From positions 1 through 37,723 of IMG/VR virus record IMGVR_UViG_3300044637_000937: DNA of 37,723 nucleotides; one strand, 5' to 3'. The stretch's first letter is position 1; each line of letters starts with the position of its first letter. Position numbers and translations under genes: made by a program. Of the stretch, positions 128-37,723 are shown piece after piece. This stretch comes from a virus. The notes below the pieces were generated by a model. The model had not been told where the DNA came from. It worked only from the letters and a program-made list of their open reading frames with translations, and made no database searches.

Positions 128-333
128 CAGCTTTAGCCCTTGGTGGCACCAACGACGCCGCAAATCTGCGCCCTGCCCACGCTAAATGCCATAGAGGCGT
201 AGGTTCAAAGACTAGCGATGATTTGAAGGCAATTAGCCGCGCGGATCGGCTGGCAAAGAAACATTTTGGAATTACGCCCAAGAAAAAGGGCCGCATACCA
301 TCGCGACCCTTTCCAAAGCGTGTTAAAGATTAG
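1..333 (+). CDS. HNH endonuclease (3' part of a gene split by the contig ends)
   Basis: This is the continuation of the gene that starts with ATG at 37579; base 1 is the first base of codon 7. The joined product is 116 residues. It has a classic HNH/zinc-type nuclease core: CxxC at residues 30-33, Asp46-His47 as the metal/catalytic pair, Asn61, and Cys69-His70, followed by a Lys/Arg-rich tail. Small HNH proteins like this cut DNA, and in phages they often sit beside recombination or packaging genes. Here it is the last gene after gp157, bet and a DUF1367 gene and starts in an ATGA overlap with the latter, which suggests a recombination or replication-processing role. Its TAG stop (331-333) overlaps the stop of the convergent GcrA gene. 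Confidence 0.9.
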   Translation, partial: KLEPRKGFTPKQRAAVFSEHGGICHLCKAPIQAGQAWDVDHVTALALGGTNDAANLRPAHAKCHRGVGSKTSDDLKAISRADRLAKKHFGITPKKKGRIPSRPFPKRVKD

Positions 334-887
334 GCCGCCACCTTCATCTTAAGAGGCACCTTGACCGAGCAGATCGCGCGATGTGTCTTGCAATAGCTTG
401 ATCCCTCGTCTTGAGGCTCGCAGCAGAAGCGGAAGTCAGGCGAACCAACAACGCCAATTGGAAAGCGACATTCGCCACGCTTCAGACCTGCAACAGCATC
501 GCGCGTGTAGGTGGAGAGAAGCGCGATTGGTTGCTCTTTCTCTGTCTCTATCGCATTGCGGACAGCCGCTTTTAATCTCTCAATCTCGCGCTTGCGTTCC
601 TTGTTGGCTTTTTGTTGGGCCATCTTTTCAGCGCGCTTGAGGCGACGTGTTGCGTTATAAACCGCGTTCTTTGACGCTAGATCATGGGCGCGTTGAACGT
701 TGGTTTTGAAGTGGCTGTAGCTGATGTCACGGACCATCCCCATGCGATGCCGCTTGCCGATCACCGAATTGCGGCTAAGGCTTAGGGAGAATTGGCGATT
801 GATAAGCCGCGCACTTTCGCTGCAAGACAGGCCATCCTTGAAGTGGGCTTCCAGCATTTCGAGTTGATCTTGCGTCCAAACGTTCAT
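330..887 (-). CDS. gcrA: GcrA-family transcription regulator (phage-encoded)
   Basis: 185 residues, close to the 173 of Caulobacter GcrA. The N-terminal DNA-binding domain has the family signature: Trp4 start of helix 1, DGLSCSESARLI, and SRNSVIGKRHRMG at residues 38-50. A Lys/Arg-rich helical linker follows. The C-terminal domain keeps GECRFPIG followed by a Cys/His-containing FCC...SYCKTH stretch, the sigma70-contacting end of GcrA. In alphaproteobacteria GcrA binds promoters carrying CcrM-methylated GANTC sites and recruits sigma70 holoenzyme. The ATG at 887 is chosen because it forms an ATGA overlap with the upstream winged-helix gene; a GTG/ATG extension to 902 is possible. A phage copy could redirect host cell-cycle transcription or activate phage promoters; that is inference. 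Confidence 0.88.
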   Translation of the reverse strand: MNVWTQDQLEMLEAHFKDGLSCSESARLINRQFSLSLSRNSVIGKRHRMGMVRDISYSHFKTNVQRAHDLASKNAVYNATRRLKRAEKMAQQKANKERKREIERLKAAVRNAIETEKEQPIALLSTYTRDAVAGLKRGECRFPIGVVGSPDFRFCCEPQDEGSSYCKTHRAICSVKVPLKMKVAA

Positions 888-1249
888 GACTTGGCCACCC
901 ACTGATGGTCGCCAGCCTTCTCGATCAGATTGCGGGTTGTCAGATCGGCAATGGTGTTGCGGACTAGGTGATAACTTAGGCCAGTCCGGCGCTGAATCTC
1001 TGCCTTGGTGACGGGCTTATCACGCATCACGCCATAGACACGCTGCTCGGTGCTTCTAAGGCTGGCGAGCATGTATTCACGCTCGAACGTGGCTTCGGCC
1101 TCGATTTGGTTGTCGATCCACTTGCGGGACCGAAGCCAAATCCGCAATGTTTTGTCGGTATCTTTGACGCGCCGCAGATTATCGAACGCGGTTTTTGGCA
1201 TGATGTGTTGAACGCGATTTTCGCGCAGAATAACTGTATGCAGACTCAT
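884..1249 (-). CDS. Winged-helix (MarR/ArsR-like fold) DNA-binding protein
   Basis: 121 residues from the ATG at 1249, which has a GAGGT ribosome site seven bases upstream. The C-terminal half reads as a winged helix: STEQRVYGVMRDK, then TKAEIQRRTGLSYHLVRNTI as helix-turn-helix and DLTTRNLIEKAGDHQWVAK as the beta wing. The N-terminal half is basic and helical with no recognised domain. It is coupled by ATGA overlaps to a 29-codon gene upstream and to gcrA downstream, so it is very likely co-regulated with GcrA. No family name can be given with confidence. Confidence 0.75.
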   Translation of the reverse strand: MSLHTVILRENRVQHIMPKTAFDNLRRVKDTDKTLRIWLRSRKWIDNQIEAEATFEREYMLASLRSTEQRVYGVMRDKPVTKAEIQRRTGLSYHLVRNTIADLTTRNLIEKAGDHQWVAKS

Positions 1250-1335
1250 GACACAGACCTCACAATTAAATAGACAATCCACCAGCACGCGGCGGAAAAG
1301 GTGATGGCAAAAAGGGTGGTTAGGGCGCGGGTCAT
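1246..1335 (-). CDS. 29-residue single-span membrane peptide
   Basis: A very short frame, MTRALTTLF followed by a hydrophobic stretch with Cys-Trp-Trp and a VRSVS end, that forms one transmembrane helix. It is held in place by overlaps on both sides: its ATG lies in an ATGA with the preceding 36-codon frame, and its TGA overlaps the ATG of the winged-helix gene. That coupling is the main argument that it is translated. Function unknown. Confidence 0.5.
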   Translation of the reverse strand: MTRALTTLFAITFSAACWWIVYLIVRSVS

Positions 1336-1442
1336 TTGGGTTTGCCCTCAATCTTCAATGCGATCCCATAGAGTGCGGTCGCAATCATCGAGCGCGCGGC
1401 TCTGATTAGATTTTCTAAGATTCTCAAAAGCCGCTCTTGCAT
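1332..1442 (-). CDS. Small unknown protein, 36 residues
   Basis: The frame starts at ATG 1442, with GAGG seven bases upstream in the context GTGAGGCACGCC. It encodes MQERLLRILENLIRAARSMI..., an amphipathic helix with regularly spaced Leu/Ile, and ends KIEGKPK. The stop overlaps the start of the 29-codon membrane peptide (ATGA). It may act with that peptide as a pair; function unknown. Confidence 0.5.
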   Translation of the reverse strand: MQERLLRILENLIRAARSMIATALYGIALKIEGKPK

Positions 1443-1450
1443 GGCGTGCC

Positions 1451-1717
1451 TCACTTGAAATAAAAGGACTGGGGACGGGTGCTGATGCCGCCCCCAGTCA
1501 GTTGCGCGCCGGGGAGTGTGGCGCAGGGCAAACCATCGATGGAGGGTCGAGGGTTATCGGAATAAGGGGGCGCGCTTTCCTGTGCTTTGTCGGCCACGAT
1601 GAAAAACGGGTCCGGCACCAACTTGACCCCGCGAAGGGCAGCACAAGCATTTTTCCCCGTGACAGCGCGCGGGTCACGGGAGGTAAGAGCCAGCCCGTTA
1701 TCTTGGTGATCGTTCAT
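1451..1717 (-). CDS. Unknown protein, 88 residues
   Basis: The start at ATG 1717 is preferred because it overlaps the stop of the upstream gene as ATGA; the longer Cys/Arg-rich extension to 1816 would overlap that gene by about 100 bases. The product begins MNDHQDNGLALTSRDPRAV and is rich in Pro, Ala and Gly with little predicted structure. The central LVPDPFFIVADK is the only hydrophobic patch. No family is recognised. Its TGA lies just upstream of the GAGG site of the next small gene. Confidence 0.55.
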   Translation of the reverse strand: MNDHQDNGLALTSRDPRAVTGKNACAALRGVKLVPDPFFIVADKAQESAPPYSDNPRPSIDGLPCATLPGAQLTGGGISTRPQSFYFK

Positions 1718-1917
1718 TTCGGCCCCCATCTGAGAGCCGCCGCGTCCACTTTGCAGCGTGGGCAAAGGTCTGGCGAATGAGCGACACCGACACCGACGAC
1801 AGAGAGAGGCGCGCAACAGGCACGGAGGCGACCGATACGGAACGCCTTTGCGTCCAATACGGCTTGCTCGGCCCGTGCGTTGCGTTCGCGCTGTGCTATG
1901 GGGTCGGTGTTGGCCAT
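1714..1917 (-). CDS. Small Cys-rich protein with a CPRC knuckle, 67 residues
   Basis: The start codon overlaps the upstream stop as TAATG at 1915-1919. The N-terminal half is a charged helix (QRERNARAEQAVLDAKAFR). The C-terminal half holds paired cysteines (RACC, then HSPDLCPRCKVD), which look like a zinc ribbon or knuckle. Such small metal-binding phage proteins are often host-takeover factors, but no specific function can be assigned. It ends in an ATGA overlap with the next gene. Confidence 0.6.
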   Translation of the reverse strand: MANTDPIAQRERNARAEQAVLDAKAFRIGRLRACCAPLSVVGVGVAHSPDLCPRCKVDAAALRWGPK

Positions 1918-2144
1918 TAGACTAGTGCGTCCAATTCTTCGGGAAACTCGCGTTCAATTGCCTTTAGCATCCGTATAGATGCGGCAAGCTGGCCAGTGCG
2001 AACCCGGTAGACGACCGATTGTGACCATCCAATGCGCTCACCAATGGCGGCATCGGAAAATCCTGTCAGGTCTTTTATGTGCTGTAATTTTTCCATGCTA
2101 ATTGATTTGCACATGTTTTGATGTTCGTCAAATAGTTTATGCAT
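1917..2144 (-). CDS. Small helix-turn-helix repressor-like protein
   Basis: Up to 75 residues. The segment LTGFSDAAIGERIGWSQSVVYRVRTGQ is a Cro/CI-type helix-turn-helix (recognition helix about SQSVVYRVRTG), followed by a short dimerisation-like helix, SIRMLKAIEREF. There are three in-frame ATGs (2144, 2114, 2096) and none has a Shine-Dalgarno sequence. A -10-like CATAAT at 2155-2150 would place the transcript start almost on the ATG at 2144, which suggests leaderless translation as for lambda cI from PRM. It faces the divergent early operon across an operator-rich 70-bp region, so it is probably the switch repressor for both directions. Confidence 0.75.
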   Translation of the reverse strand: MHKLFDEHQNMCKSISMEKLQHIKDLTGFSDAAIGERIGWSQSVVYRVRTGQLAASIRMLKAIEREFPEELDALV

Positions 2145-2184
2145 ACTGCATTATGATGTTGACGGGTTTAAATGCATCATGCAT
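2139..2184. promoter_or_regulatory. Operator-like ATGCAT cluster in the left divergent region
   Basis: Palindromic ATGCAT occurs at 2139-2144, 2172-2177 and 2179-2184. The last two lie inside the promoter that drives the rightward operon, and the first covers the probable start of the leftward repressor gene. The same hexamer, within TGATGCATCA, occurs twice in the other divergent control region (35473-35524). Shared binding by one or both HTH proteins is inferred. Confidence 0.5.
2150..2155 (-). promoter_or_regulatory. Candidate -10 box for the leftward regulatory operon
   Basis: On the minus strand the box reads CATAAT (5 of 6 to consensus). No good -35 is visible at 16-18 bp, as expected for an activated promoter. 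Its predicted start point is at about 2143-2144, on the first ATG of the HTH gene. Confidence 0.35.
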
Positions 2185-2187
2185 AGT
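2159..2187 (+). promoter_or_regulatory. Predicted sigma70-type promoter of the rightward small-gene operon
   Basis: TTGACG at 2159-2164, a 17-bp spacer, and CATAGT at 2182-2187. The spacer contains two ATGCAT motifs, so a protein bound there would block polymerase. The first gene starts 25 bases past the -10 box, with a GGAG ribosome site. Confidence 0.55.
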
Positions 2188-6797: not shown

Positions 6798-6860
6798 ATG
6801 CAGCGATACTTCTTTCTGGATTCCCGCGACCCGATTGAGAAGCTGACAGCCAATGTTTAA
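6798..6860 (+). CDS. Possible 20-codon microprotein or remnant
   Basis: The frame MQRYFFLDSRDPIEKLTANV has no clear ribosome site, and its stop lies within the first terminator hairpin. It may be a gene fragment or untranslated trailer. Confidence 0.2.
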   Translation: MQRYFFLDSRDPIEKLTANV

Positions 6861-20148: not shown

Positions 20149-20184
20149 TTAGCGCGCGCCTTTGGCCAATGATTCAGGAGAAGC

Positions 20185-34380: not shown

Positions 34381-34416
34381 GCCCTCCTTAAACCACTATT
34401 TCCCGATTCCTGCAAG

Positions 34417-34791: not shown

Positions 34792-34933
34792 GAGGCCACA
34801 ACTCCCATTTGATAAGCATTGATTTGACATAATCGCGGGGAAACTCAGTCAGCGCAGCTATATCGTCAATGCCGTAGCCTTCCTTGACCCATACGCGAAC
34901 GTTAAGCGGAGTGAAATAGCTAACTTTACCCAT
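34769..34933 (-). CDS. Small DNA-binding-like protein (54 aa)
   Basis: ATG 34933 overlaps the stop of the DnaA-like gene. The product MGKVSYFTPLNVRVWVKEGYGIDDIAALTEFPRDYVKSMLIKWELW has a compact helix-turn-helix-like middle (GIDDIAALTEFPRDYVKSMLI). It overlaps the VRR-NUC start by 23 bases. It may be a small HTH accessory of the replication set; no family name. Confidence 0.6.
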   Translation of the reverse strand: MGKVSYFTPLNVRVWVKEGYGIDDIAALTEFPRDYVKSMLIKWELWPHGYTQST

Positions 34934-35273
34934 TGAATATCCCCATATCGCTTTCGATTGAGACCACATCCAAGTGCCATGACTTGTCAGCGCTTGCGAT
35001 TTTATCCGCTACAGTTTGCCAAGCGTGCATGACGGTAGTGTGATGGCGCTCCCCAAACCGCTCACCGATAGCTGGAAATGAAAGCTGCGTGTGCTTGCGG
35101 GTCAAAAACATTGCGATTTGACGAGGGCGAGCGATGACGCGGAAACAGCGGGGGCCAAGCAATTCCTCATGGCTGATCTTGAAGTATTGGCAAACCGCCT
35201 TTTGGATTTGCCGATAGTTGACGCGCTTGGTTGGGAGGCCGTATTGGTCAATGTGAAGGGCTGCTGTTGTCAT
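34926..35273 (-). CDS. Free-standing DnaA domain IV (origin-binding) protein
   Basis: 115 residues. From about 20 to 95 the sequence is the DnaA C-terminal DNA-binding domain: IQKAVCQYFKISHEELLGPR, then RVIARPRQIAMFLTRKHTQLSFPAIGERFGERHHTTVMHAWQ. The DnaA signature helix-turn-helix (IGxxFGxRxHTTVxHA) is intact, including the residues that contact DnaA boxes. The AAA+ ATPase and domain I are absent, so it can bind DnaA boxes but not form an ATP-driven filament. It might mark the phage origin or compete with host DnaA. ATGA overlap with the HTH gene. Confidence 0.88.
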   Translation of the reverse strand: MTTAALHIDQYGLPTKRVNYRQIQKAVCQYFKISHEELLGPRCFRVIARPRQIAMFLTRKHTQLSFPAIGERFGERHHTTVMHAWQTVADKIASADKSWHLDVVSIESDMGIFNG

Positions 35274-35458
35274 GGCTTGACCCCCAAATAATCGGCCAAC
35301 GTTTTTAGCGTGCGAGTTTGCGGACCCTTGGCATGGTTGCCACCTTGCCTGATGCGGTGCAGCGTTGTTTTTGACACGCCGGTAGCGCGCGACACCTTCA
35401 ATAAGATGCGGTCATGCAACGCCGCTTGGACGCGCTCGCATAATGTTTGTTCTGACAT
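35270..35458 (-). CDS. Cro/C1-type repressor
   Basis: 62 residues. The helix-turn-helix is LLKVSRATGVSKTTLHRIRQGG, with a further helix RTLKTLADYLGV, the complete five-helix Cro-like core. AGGAGG-like GGAGGC lies just before ATG 35458. It is the first gene of the 28.5-kb leftward unit and faces the recombination operon, so it probably regulates both by binding the palindromes in the intergenic region. Confidence 0.8.
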   Translation of the reverse strand: MSEQTLCERVQAALHDRILLKVSRATGVSKTTLHRIRQGGNHAKGPQTRTLKTLADYLGVKP

Positions 35459-35472
35459 ATTGCCTCCTAATT

Positions 35473-35539
35473 TGATGCATCATCGTATCAATTGATACTT
35501 GACAGGCCAATGTGTGATGCATTAGGTTTGGCTTGTCAA
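35473..35539. promoter_or_regulatory. Right divergent control region with palindromic operators
   Basis: Holds the palindrome TGATGCATCA (35473-35482), a near-copy TGATGCATTA (35515-35524) exactly 42 bp away (four helical turns), and the perfect 14-bp palindrome GTATCAATTGATAC (35485-35498). TTGACA -35 boxes occur facing each other (35499-35504 rightward, 35539-35534 leftward), though each lacks a good -10 at 17 bp. Confidence 0.6.
35482..35510 (-). promoter_or_regulatory. Candidate promoter for the leftward replication unit
   Basis: Leftward TTGGCC (35510-35505), a 17-bp spacer, TACGAT (35487-35482). The 14-bp palindrome fills most of the spacer, so a repressor there would block it. The HTH gene starts 24 bases downstream. 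Confidence 0.45.
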
Positions 35540-35558
35540 GTAGGGAGTATGTCCGTTA

Positions 35559-35720
35559 ATGACACAACGACTAAGTAAACTCACCAAGCTAAACCAAGCC
35601 GCTGACGCCGCTTGCTGGCGTGCGTTTATTGCCCACCGTGGTGTAAAGCAAACTCGTCAGCGTGCAGCGGTTGAAGCACGAACCAAGGCTCTAAAAGCCG
35701 AATTAAGGGGAAAGAAATGA
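35559..35720 (+). CDS. Small basic protein (53 aa)
   Basis: ATG 35559 with GGGAG about 11 bases upstream; it ends ATGA with the Gp157 gene. The product MTQRLSKLTKLNQAADAACWRAF...RGVKQTRQRAAVEARTKALKAELRGKK is a Lys/Arg-rich double helix, probably nucleic-acid binding. Opens the rightward recombination operon. Confidence 0.6.
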   Translation: MTQRLSKLTKLNQAADAACWRAFIAHRGVKQTRQRAAVEARTKALKAELRGKK

Positions 35721-37127: not shown

Positions 37128-37582
37128 CCGAAACCCACCTATTCCAACGCACCTTGCATGGGCTTCAACCAGATGCCGTCAATGCGGGTGTGTTGGATGA
37201 CGTGCCAATAGGCTCAATCGTATCTGTCACGATTAAACGCCCTCGAAACGTGTTGCACCACCGCAAGCTATTTGCGCTTATTTCGGTGGTGTTTCCACAT
37301 CAAAGCGTATGGCTAACTCGTGAGGATTTGCGGGAAAGCCTTTTAATAGCGGCTGGACATAGCGAAGCCGTGCAAGCCATGATTACAGACCCCACGACCA
37401 AGAAGCGGGTTCTGGGTGAGGTATGGCGGGCTAAATCAATCAGCTTTAAGGCTCTTGACCAAAAGGGTTTCGAAGCAGTTTATGACAGGGTGGTGCACAT
37501 CATCCTAGATAAAATCTTGAAAGGCGTTGACCGCGCCGATCTGGACCGTGAAGTTGAAGAAATTTTGATAGGCCGTCGATGA
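37124..37582 (+). CDS. DUF1367-type phage protein (152 aa)
   Basis: ATGA overlap with bet. The pattern GSIVSVTIKRPRNVLHHRKLFALISVVF, then KKRVLGEVWRAKSISFKALDQKGFEAVYDRVVHIIL, is that of the DUF1367 family (RPRNxxxHRKxFALL and a KSISFxxxDQxxFxxxY box). Family members sit in replication/recombination regions of phages. Activity unknown. The end overlaps the HNH start (ATGA). Confidence 0.82.
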   Translation: MTETHLFQRTLHGLQPDAVNAGVLDDVPIGSIVSVTIKRPRNVLHHRKLFALISVVFPHQSVWLTREDLRESLLIAAGHSEAVQAMITDPTTKKRVLGEVWRAKSISFKALDQKGFEAVYDRVVHIILDKILKGVDRADLDREVEEILIGRR

Positions 37583-37723
37583 TTTTTTCCCCAATCAAAC
37601 TTGAACCCCGTAAGGGATTCACACCCAAACAGCGTGCCGCCGTGTTCTCAGAGCATGGCGGTATCTGCCATTTATGCAAGGCACCCATCCAAGCAGGGCA
37701 GGCATGGGACGTTGACCACGTGA
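37579..37723 (+). CDS. HNH endonuclease (5' part; continues at base 1)
   Basis: ATG 37579 overlaps the DUF1367 stop as ATGA. It encodes MIFSPIKLEPRKGFTPKQRAA and the first CxxC of the HNH protein; after 37596 the sequence repeats bases 1-127. See the 3' part for motifs. Confidence 0.9.
   Translation, partial: MIFSPIKLEPRKGFTPKQRAAVFSEHGGICHLCKAPIQAGQAWDVDHV
37597..37723. repeat. Terminal direct repeat, right copy
   Basis: Exact copy of 1-127; remove one copy when closing the circle. Confidence 0.95.

Follow-up and report, generated by a model that had tools for sequence, protein, structure and literature searches.

A divergent two-domain GcrA-family protein of a P22-like podovirus as a candidate host-directed sigma70 cofactor

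Introduction

Methylated GANTC sites are the sites normally read by GcrA. A gene for a GcrA-family protein closes a leftward operon of the viral contig IMGVR_UViG_3300044637_000937, which was analysed here over its whole length of 37,723 nucleotides (the window), and the question raised by this locus is on which promoters such a protein would act. The initial annotation, made from the sequence alone, had offered two answers: the phage could hijack cell-cycle transcription of the host, or it could time its own promoters by their methylation state.

Phage GcrA proteins have been named, and a hijack of the host cell cycle has been proposed, in earlier literature (PMC3556154; PMC6630229), the idea having been published in 2012 for phiCbK (PMC3556154), and a survey of coral phages includes another viral gcrA gene (PMC11309003). 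Such proteins have been annotated since 2012, but in the literature examined none was reported to have been tested experimentally.

Results

The contig is a complete circular phage genome with 37,596 unique bases and a 127-bp direct terminal repeat, identical at both ends. The portal, large terminase, major head and head-closure proteins gave phage family matches, and the portal was P22-like, so that by its protein matches the phage is a P22-like podovirus of 37.6 kb. No integrase was seen among the phage proteins scanned against families. The top-scoring cellular match of the portal was found in a Phenylobacterium MAG (40% identity), and further portal matches were found in unrelated, non-alphaproteobacterial bacteria. 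The presence of gcrA and the depletion of GANTC described below indicate that the host is probably an alphaproteobacterium with CcrM. An HNH endonuclease gene on the plus strand (37579-37723 joined to 1-333) is convergent with gcrA; it is divided by the contig ends and made whole in the circular genome. A sister contig (L002) shared 81-98% identity with the phage in most structural proteins and only 51% in the large terminase, which suggests mosaic exchange.

The gcrA gene ends a series of seven genes, all leftward, whose consecutive stop and start codons overlap (TAATG, ATGA, GTGA), as read directly from the open reading frames (Table 1). Its ATG at position 887 overlaps the stop codon of the winged-helix gene upstream. 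The coupled operon described in the initial annotation, with an HTH gene at its head, a winged-helix member and gcrA at its end, was therefore seen in the reading frames, with the HTH and winged-helix assignments depending on sub-threshold matches. The first gene matched HTH_3 with an E value of 2.9e-4 and phrog families of transcription regulators, and the sixth gene matched MarR_2 (E 3e-4) and phrog_1123 (E 1.9e-4). No conserved pairing of a winged-helix gene with gcrA was found when the genes upstream of gcrA were compared for 77 other viral copies.

Table 1. Coordinates of the genes and sites discussed, by position in the window
Position	Strand	Feature	Basis or remark
330..887	-	GcrA-family protein, 185 aa	Pfam PF07750 E 7e-23; model vs 5yiu, 5yix
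884..1249	-	Winged-helix (MarR-like) protein, 121 aa; stop overlaps gcrA start	Weak MarR_2, phrog_1123
1246..1335	-	29-aa hydrophobic peptide	Direct reading
1332..1454	-	40-aa ORF	Direct reading
1451..1717	-	88-aa ORF	Direct reading
1714..1917	-	67-aa ORF, without family match	ORF list, family scan
1917..2144	-	Cro/CI-like HTH protein, 75 aa; alternative starts 2114 or 2097	HTH_3; phrog transcription regulators
2138..2185	.	Inverted repeat (87%) TATGCATACTGCATT / AATGCATCATGCATA, putative operator pair of the divergent early promoter region	No GANTC
34405..34409	.	GATTC, sole promoter-proximal candidate GANTC	81 bases upstream of DUF1376/DnaT-like replication gene
34926..35273	-	Stand-alone DnaA domain-IV (DNA-binding) protein, 115 aa, without ATPase	PF08299 E 7.8e-27
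35270..35458	-	Second Cro/CI-type HTH regulator, 62 aa	PF13443 HTH_26 E 2.5e-6; phrog repressors
35473..35542	.	Second divergent promoter region: two TGATGCAT copies and 93% inverted repeat TACTTGACAGGCCAA / TTGGCTTGTCAAGTA	No GANTC

The naming of the last operon product as a phage-encoded GcrA was borne out by the profile search, in which residues 4-171 matched the Pfam GcrA family PF07750 at 82.2 bits (cut-off 26.9; E 7e-23). The protein consists of a DNA-binding domain (residues ~1-52), a predicted helical linker (~57-116) and a sigma-interacting domain (~135-175). In the sequence comparison with solved structures the sole credible matches were to Caulobacter crescentus GcrA, with an E value of 1.6e-6 for 7ye1. 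In the 7ye1 comparison, the DNA-binding motif SRNSVIGKRHRMG aligned with C. crescentus TRNAVIGKVHRLG, and the C-terminal CRFPIGVVGSPDFRFC...YCKTH aligned with CKWPIGDPSSEGFTFC...YCVEH. The motifs common to both proteins are RN-VIGK-HR-G and C..P.G...F.FC...YC..H. Some of the invariance of the recognition helix and the cysteines in alignments of viral GcrA proteins follows from the search pattern and filter with which these proteins were collected, and the identification of the protein therefore rests on the comparison with solved structures, which is independent of both.

An AlphaFold2 model, calculated from 50 aligned viral GcrA proteins, had a mean pLDDT of 89. Foldseek comparison of the model with the PDB gave C. 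crescentus GcrA for all of the top four chains (probability 1.00). The predicted DNA-binding domain was superimposed on 5yiu with a TM-score of 0.76 by target length and an rmsd of 1.9 A, and the predicted sigma-interacting domain on 5yix with a TM-score of 0.81 by target length and an rmsd of 1.5 A. The recognition motif RNxVIGKxHRxG lies in the N-terminal DNA-binding fold, according to both the alignment to 7ye1/5yiu and the model, and the sigma-interacting domain, modelled against 5yix_B, carries the motif CRFPIG..SPDFRFC...YCKTH. Both GcrA domains are thus intact in the phage protein as modelled. The loop before the recognition helix is longer in the phage protein (QFSLSLSRNSVIGKRHRMG). 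The interdomain linker was predicted as a single 60-residue helix, in contrast to that of C. crescentus GcrA, for which an unstructured linker has been described (PMC7403470).

The protein scored 54.8 bits against the NCBIfam GcrA equivalog NF050816, below its cut-off of 280, and its best cellular matches had ~30% identity (about 27-38%) among 385 genomes from the class of the Phenylobacterium MAG (G057), hence Alphaproteobacteria. A host-type GcrA ortholog was ruled out by this score and this level of identity to host GcrA, and the protein is, judged by its sequence, a divergent but genuine GcrA-family member with two domains. Single-protein scans of viral contigs and genome contigs found no close relatives, and an alignment-based scan recovered one phiCbK-like contig and nothing else. 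In a poorly resolved tree of the window, viral and host proteins, the window protein was placed on a long branch. The Pfam GcrA profile also scored above its cut-off in a control genome, that of the archaeon Sulfolobus acidocaldarius.

Viral copies of GcrA are already known and common, and the phage protein is another divergent member of this class. A tblastn search of 50,697 phage records gave 18 hits, 16 of them phiCbK-like. The DNA pattern of the recognition helix, N[S/A]VIGKxHR[L/M]G, was found in at least 119 IMG/VR stretches, nearly all of which encode a recognisable GcrA; some of these stretches may be host or prophage flank, and one (L091) looks host-type. Viral gcrA genes often overlap or closely trail the upstream gene. 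Their recognised neighbours are mostly genes of DNA metabolism (RusA, VRR-NUC, DUF1064, C5-methylase) and occasionally GapR or DnaA domain IV. Immediately upstream, GapR-like DNA-binding proteins were encoded in two cases and a Trans_reg_C protein of the response-regulator type in one. A family of 69-aa viral proteins (e.g. MRKNEWTEERIEKL...; L021, L028, L030, L039, L062, L079, L119, L124 and L130), which recurs in several IMG/VR contigs, has the GcrA DNA-binding domain without the sigma-interacting domain.

The palindrome ATGCAT occurs 7 times in the genome, compared with 18 copies expected, and 5 of the 7 lie inside the two divergent promoter regions, a concentration in about 0.5% of the genome that was noticed post hoc and is hard to get by chance. 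The 8-mer ATGCATCA/TGATGCAT is confined, genome-wide, to the same two regions. The ATGCAT palindromes are probably the operator of the HTH protein or proteins of the phage itself. On this operator reading the operon would be autonomous through a classical repressor and not through methylation. Of the autonomous regulation that had been suggested for the operon, the part concerning a repressor of its own is therefore likely, and the part concerning control by methylation was not supported, given the operator-like repeats and the lack of GANTC in the early promoter regions.

The window contains 31 GANTC sites, compared with 127 +/- 9 expected from dinucleotide shuffles, which is an approximately fourfold depletion. 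By a second-order Markov expectation the values were 30 and 103, respectively (observed/expected ratio 0.29). The intervals between 1419 and 2338 and between 34405 and 37616 contained no GANTC, and the two divergent regions of the early promoters that lie in them (2097-2212 and 35459-35560) are empty. Twenty-seven of the 30 unique sites are intragenic. Outside genes there are three: at 6819, where convergent operons meet and next to a terminator-like hairpin; at 20171, 25 bases upstream of a structural-region gene; and at 34405. No N6/N4 methylase of the CcrM type was found in the phage, which had no PF01555 match, and CcrM, if used, would have to come from the host. The proposal that phage promoters are timed by GANTC methylation was thus not supported for the early promoters, given the depletion, the empty early promoter regions and the lack of a phage methylase; near the phage promoters, the site at 34405 was the single, ambiguous candidate.

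Avoidance of GANTC was not restricted to this phage. In 102 GcrA-carrying viral loci the observed/expected ratio was 0.40, making GANTC the most depleted of 16 comparable motifs. No special intergenic enrichment of GANTC was detected in GcrA-carrying viral loci (1.77 vs 1.42 per kb), as the ratio was shown by other motifs too. The portal relatives of the phage (n = 14) had a median ratio of 0.77, with 0.18 in the 88%-identical sister contig and 0.03 in L004, a distant portal relative with 1 GANTC in 13 kb compared with 35 expected. The GANTC depletion may reflect avoidance of restriction enzymes or a general avoidance in CcrM hosts. CCNGG is equally depleted in the window (38 sites vs 103-140 expected, none intergenic), with a ratio of 0.84 in the other GcrA-carrying loci, which suggests a host restriction system.

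The phage also encodes a stand-alone DNA-binding domain of DnaA (Table 1). Of 47 GcrA-carrying viral contigs, 13 also encoded DnaA domain IV; this count, which covers gcrA carriers only, is a hint that DNA-binding modules of the host cell cycle have been captured more widely. The exact DnaA box TTATNCACA and full CtrA sites were absent from the phage genome, and DnaA boxes with one mismatch occurred at chance level.

Discussion

The best explanation of the locus, given about an even chance of being right, is that the two-domain GcrA of this P22-like podovirus is a host-directed sigma70 cofactor that steers host promoters. We infer sigma70 binding, the reading of methylated GANTC, the identity of the host, its targets and the early timing. 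The gcrA gene would be expressed early, as part of the leftward operon headed by the HTH gene, and control would lie with the ATGCAT operator of the phage and not with GANTC methylation. The C-terminal domain of the protein would bind sigma70 domain 2, and its N-terminal helix-turn-helix would bring that RNA polymerase to methylated GANTC promoters. Host promoters, such as those of S-phase and replication genes, would be the likeliest targets because GANTC has been purged from the phage genome and its early promoters. The host cell could be pushed by the phage toward a replication-competent state, and hijacking of the host cell cycle is plausible as the likeliest role of the protein. A wider scheme, in which captured modules (GcrA and DnaA domain IV here, GapR-like proteins in other phages) jointly override the transcription and replication-initiation arms of the alphaproteobacterial cell cycle and, as the phage itself is poor in GANTC and lacks an exact DnaA box, would act mainly on the host, was considered unlikely.

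Phage promoters would be the targets if the protein had kept its sigma70-binding half and its DNA-binding half read a phage-specific sequence, so that middle or late genes were turned on. The divergence of the DNA-binding domain, with its longer loop and the overall identity of ~30% to host proteins, is consistent with such an activator, as is the purging of GANTC from the phage. GcrA can act at non-GANTC sites (PMC7987155) and binds some of them in vivo (PMC3667746; PMC7987155), so phage promoters could be targets even where GANTC is missing. However, the recognition-helix residues common to C. crescentus GcrA have been retained, and the activator is without a defined candidate site. This explanation was rated as rather doubtful.

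A methylation clock, in which the phage GcrA would read the methylation state of GANTC to time phage promoters, could use the GATTC that precedes the replication initiation gene by 81 bases (34405) and the site at 20171 upstream of a structural-region gene. It is improbable in view of the fourfold depletion, the divergent early promoter regions without GANTC, the lack of an N6/N4 methylase in the phage and the absence of special intergenic enrichment in GcrA-carrying viral loci. Published scans of phage genomes likewise found no positional asymmetry of GcrA sites (PMC9437464). The protein could also be a decoy that occupies sigma70 domain 2, blocks host GcrA and shuts down the host GcrA regulon. 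The sigma-interacting domain is well conserved in the predicted model while the overall sequence has diverged, and the 60-residue predicted helical linker differs from the unstructured linker of C. crescentus GcrA (PMC7403470), both of which would fit a decoy. The DNA-binding domain is conserved too, however, and would not be needed for simple sequestration, so that little probability was assigned to this role.

If the preferred reading, action on host promoters, is true, the phage would use this protein to read methylation on host DNA and so direct the sigma70 of the host, and phages could in this way decide which stage of the cell cycle their host is in. The wide occurrence of viral GcrA (at least 119 contigs) together with the coincident avoidance of GANTC argues against clocks on phage promoters and for host-directed action as a class.

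The phage protein resembles C. crescentus GcrA (PF07750; 5yiu/5yiv, 5yix, 7ye1) in its two-domain layout, recognition-helix motif, Cys/His-rich C-terminal motif and predicted folds. It differs in its score below the NF050816 cut-off, in the linker predicted as one long helix and in its location in a phage operon. Like gp222 of phiCbK and the GcrA homologs of phiCbK-like phages (Gill et al. 2012, PMC3556154), it is a phage-encoded protein of the Pfam GcrA family for which the same hijack hypothesis can be put forward, but identity to these homologs is 24-25%, and phiCbK is a 205-kb siphophage, whereas the window is a 37.6-kb P22-like podovirus with a different operon. The gp5 protein of Agrobacterium phage Atu_ph08 (PMC6630229) is also a phage-encoded GcrA by annotation; it was reported to share ~90% identity with an Agrobacterium genomospecies 3 protein, whereas the window protein is without such a relative among the genomes scanned. 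The putative GcrA proteins of the Synechococcus phages Ssp-JY42 and Yong-M4-211 likewise contain both domains and share 44% identity with the phage protein in the DNA-binding domain, but the neighbours of their gcrA genes (HNH, RusA and helicase) differ from those in the window.
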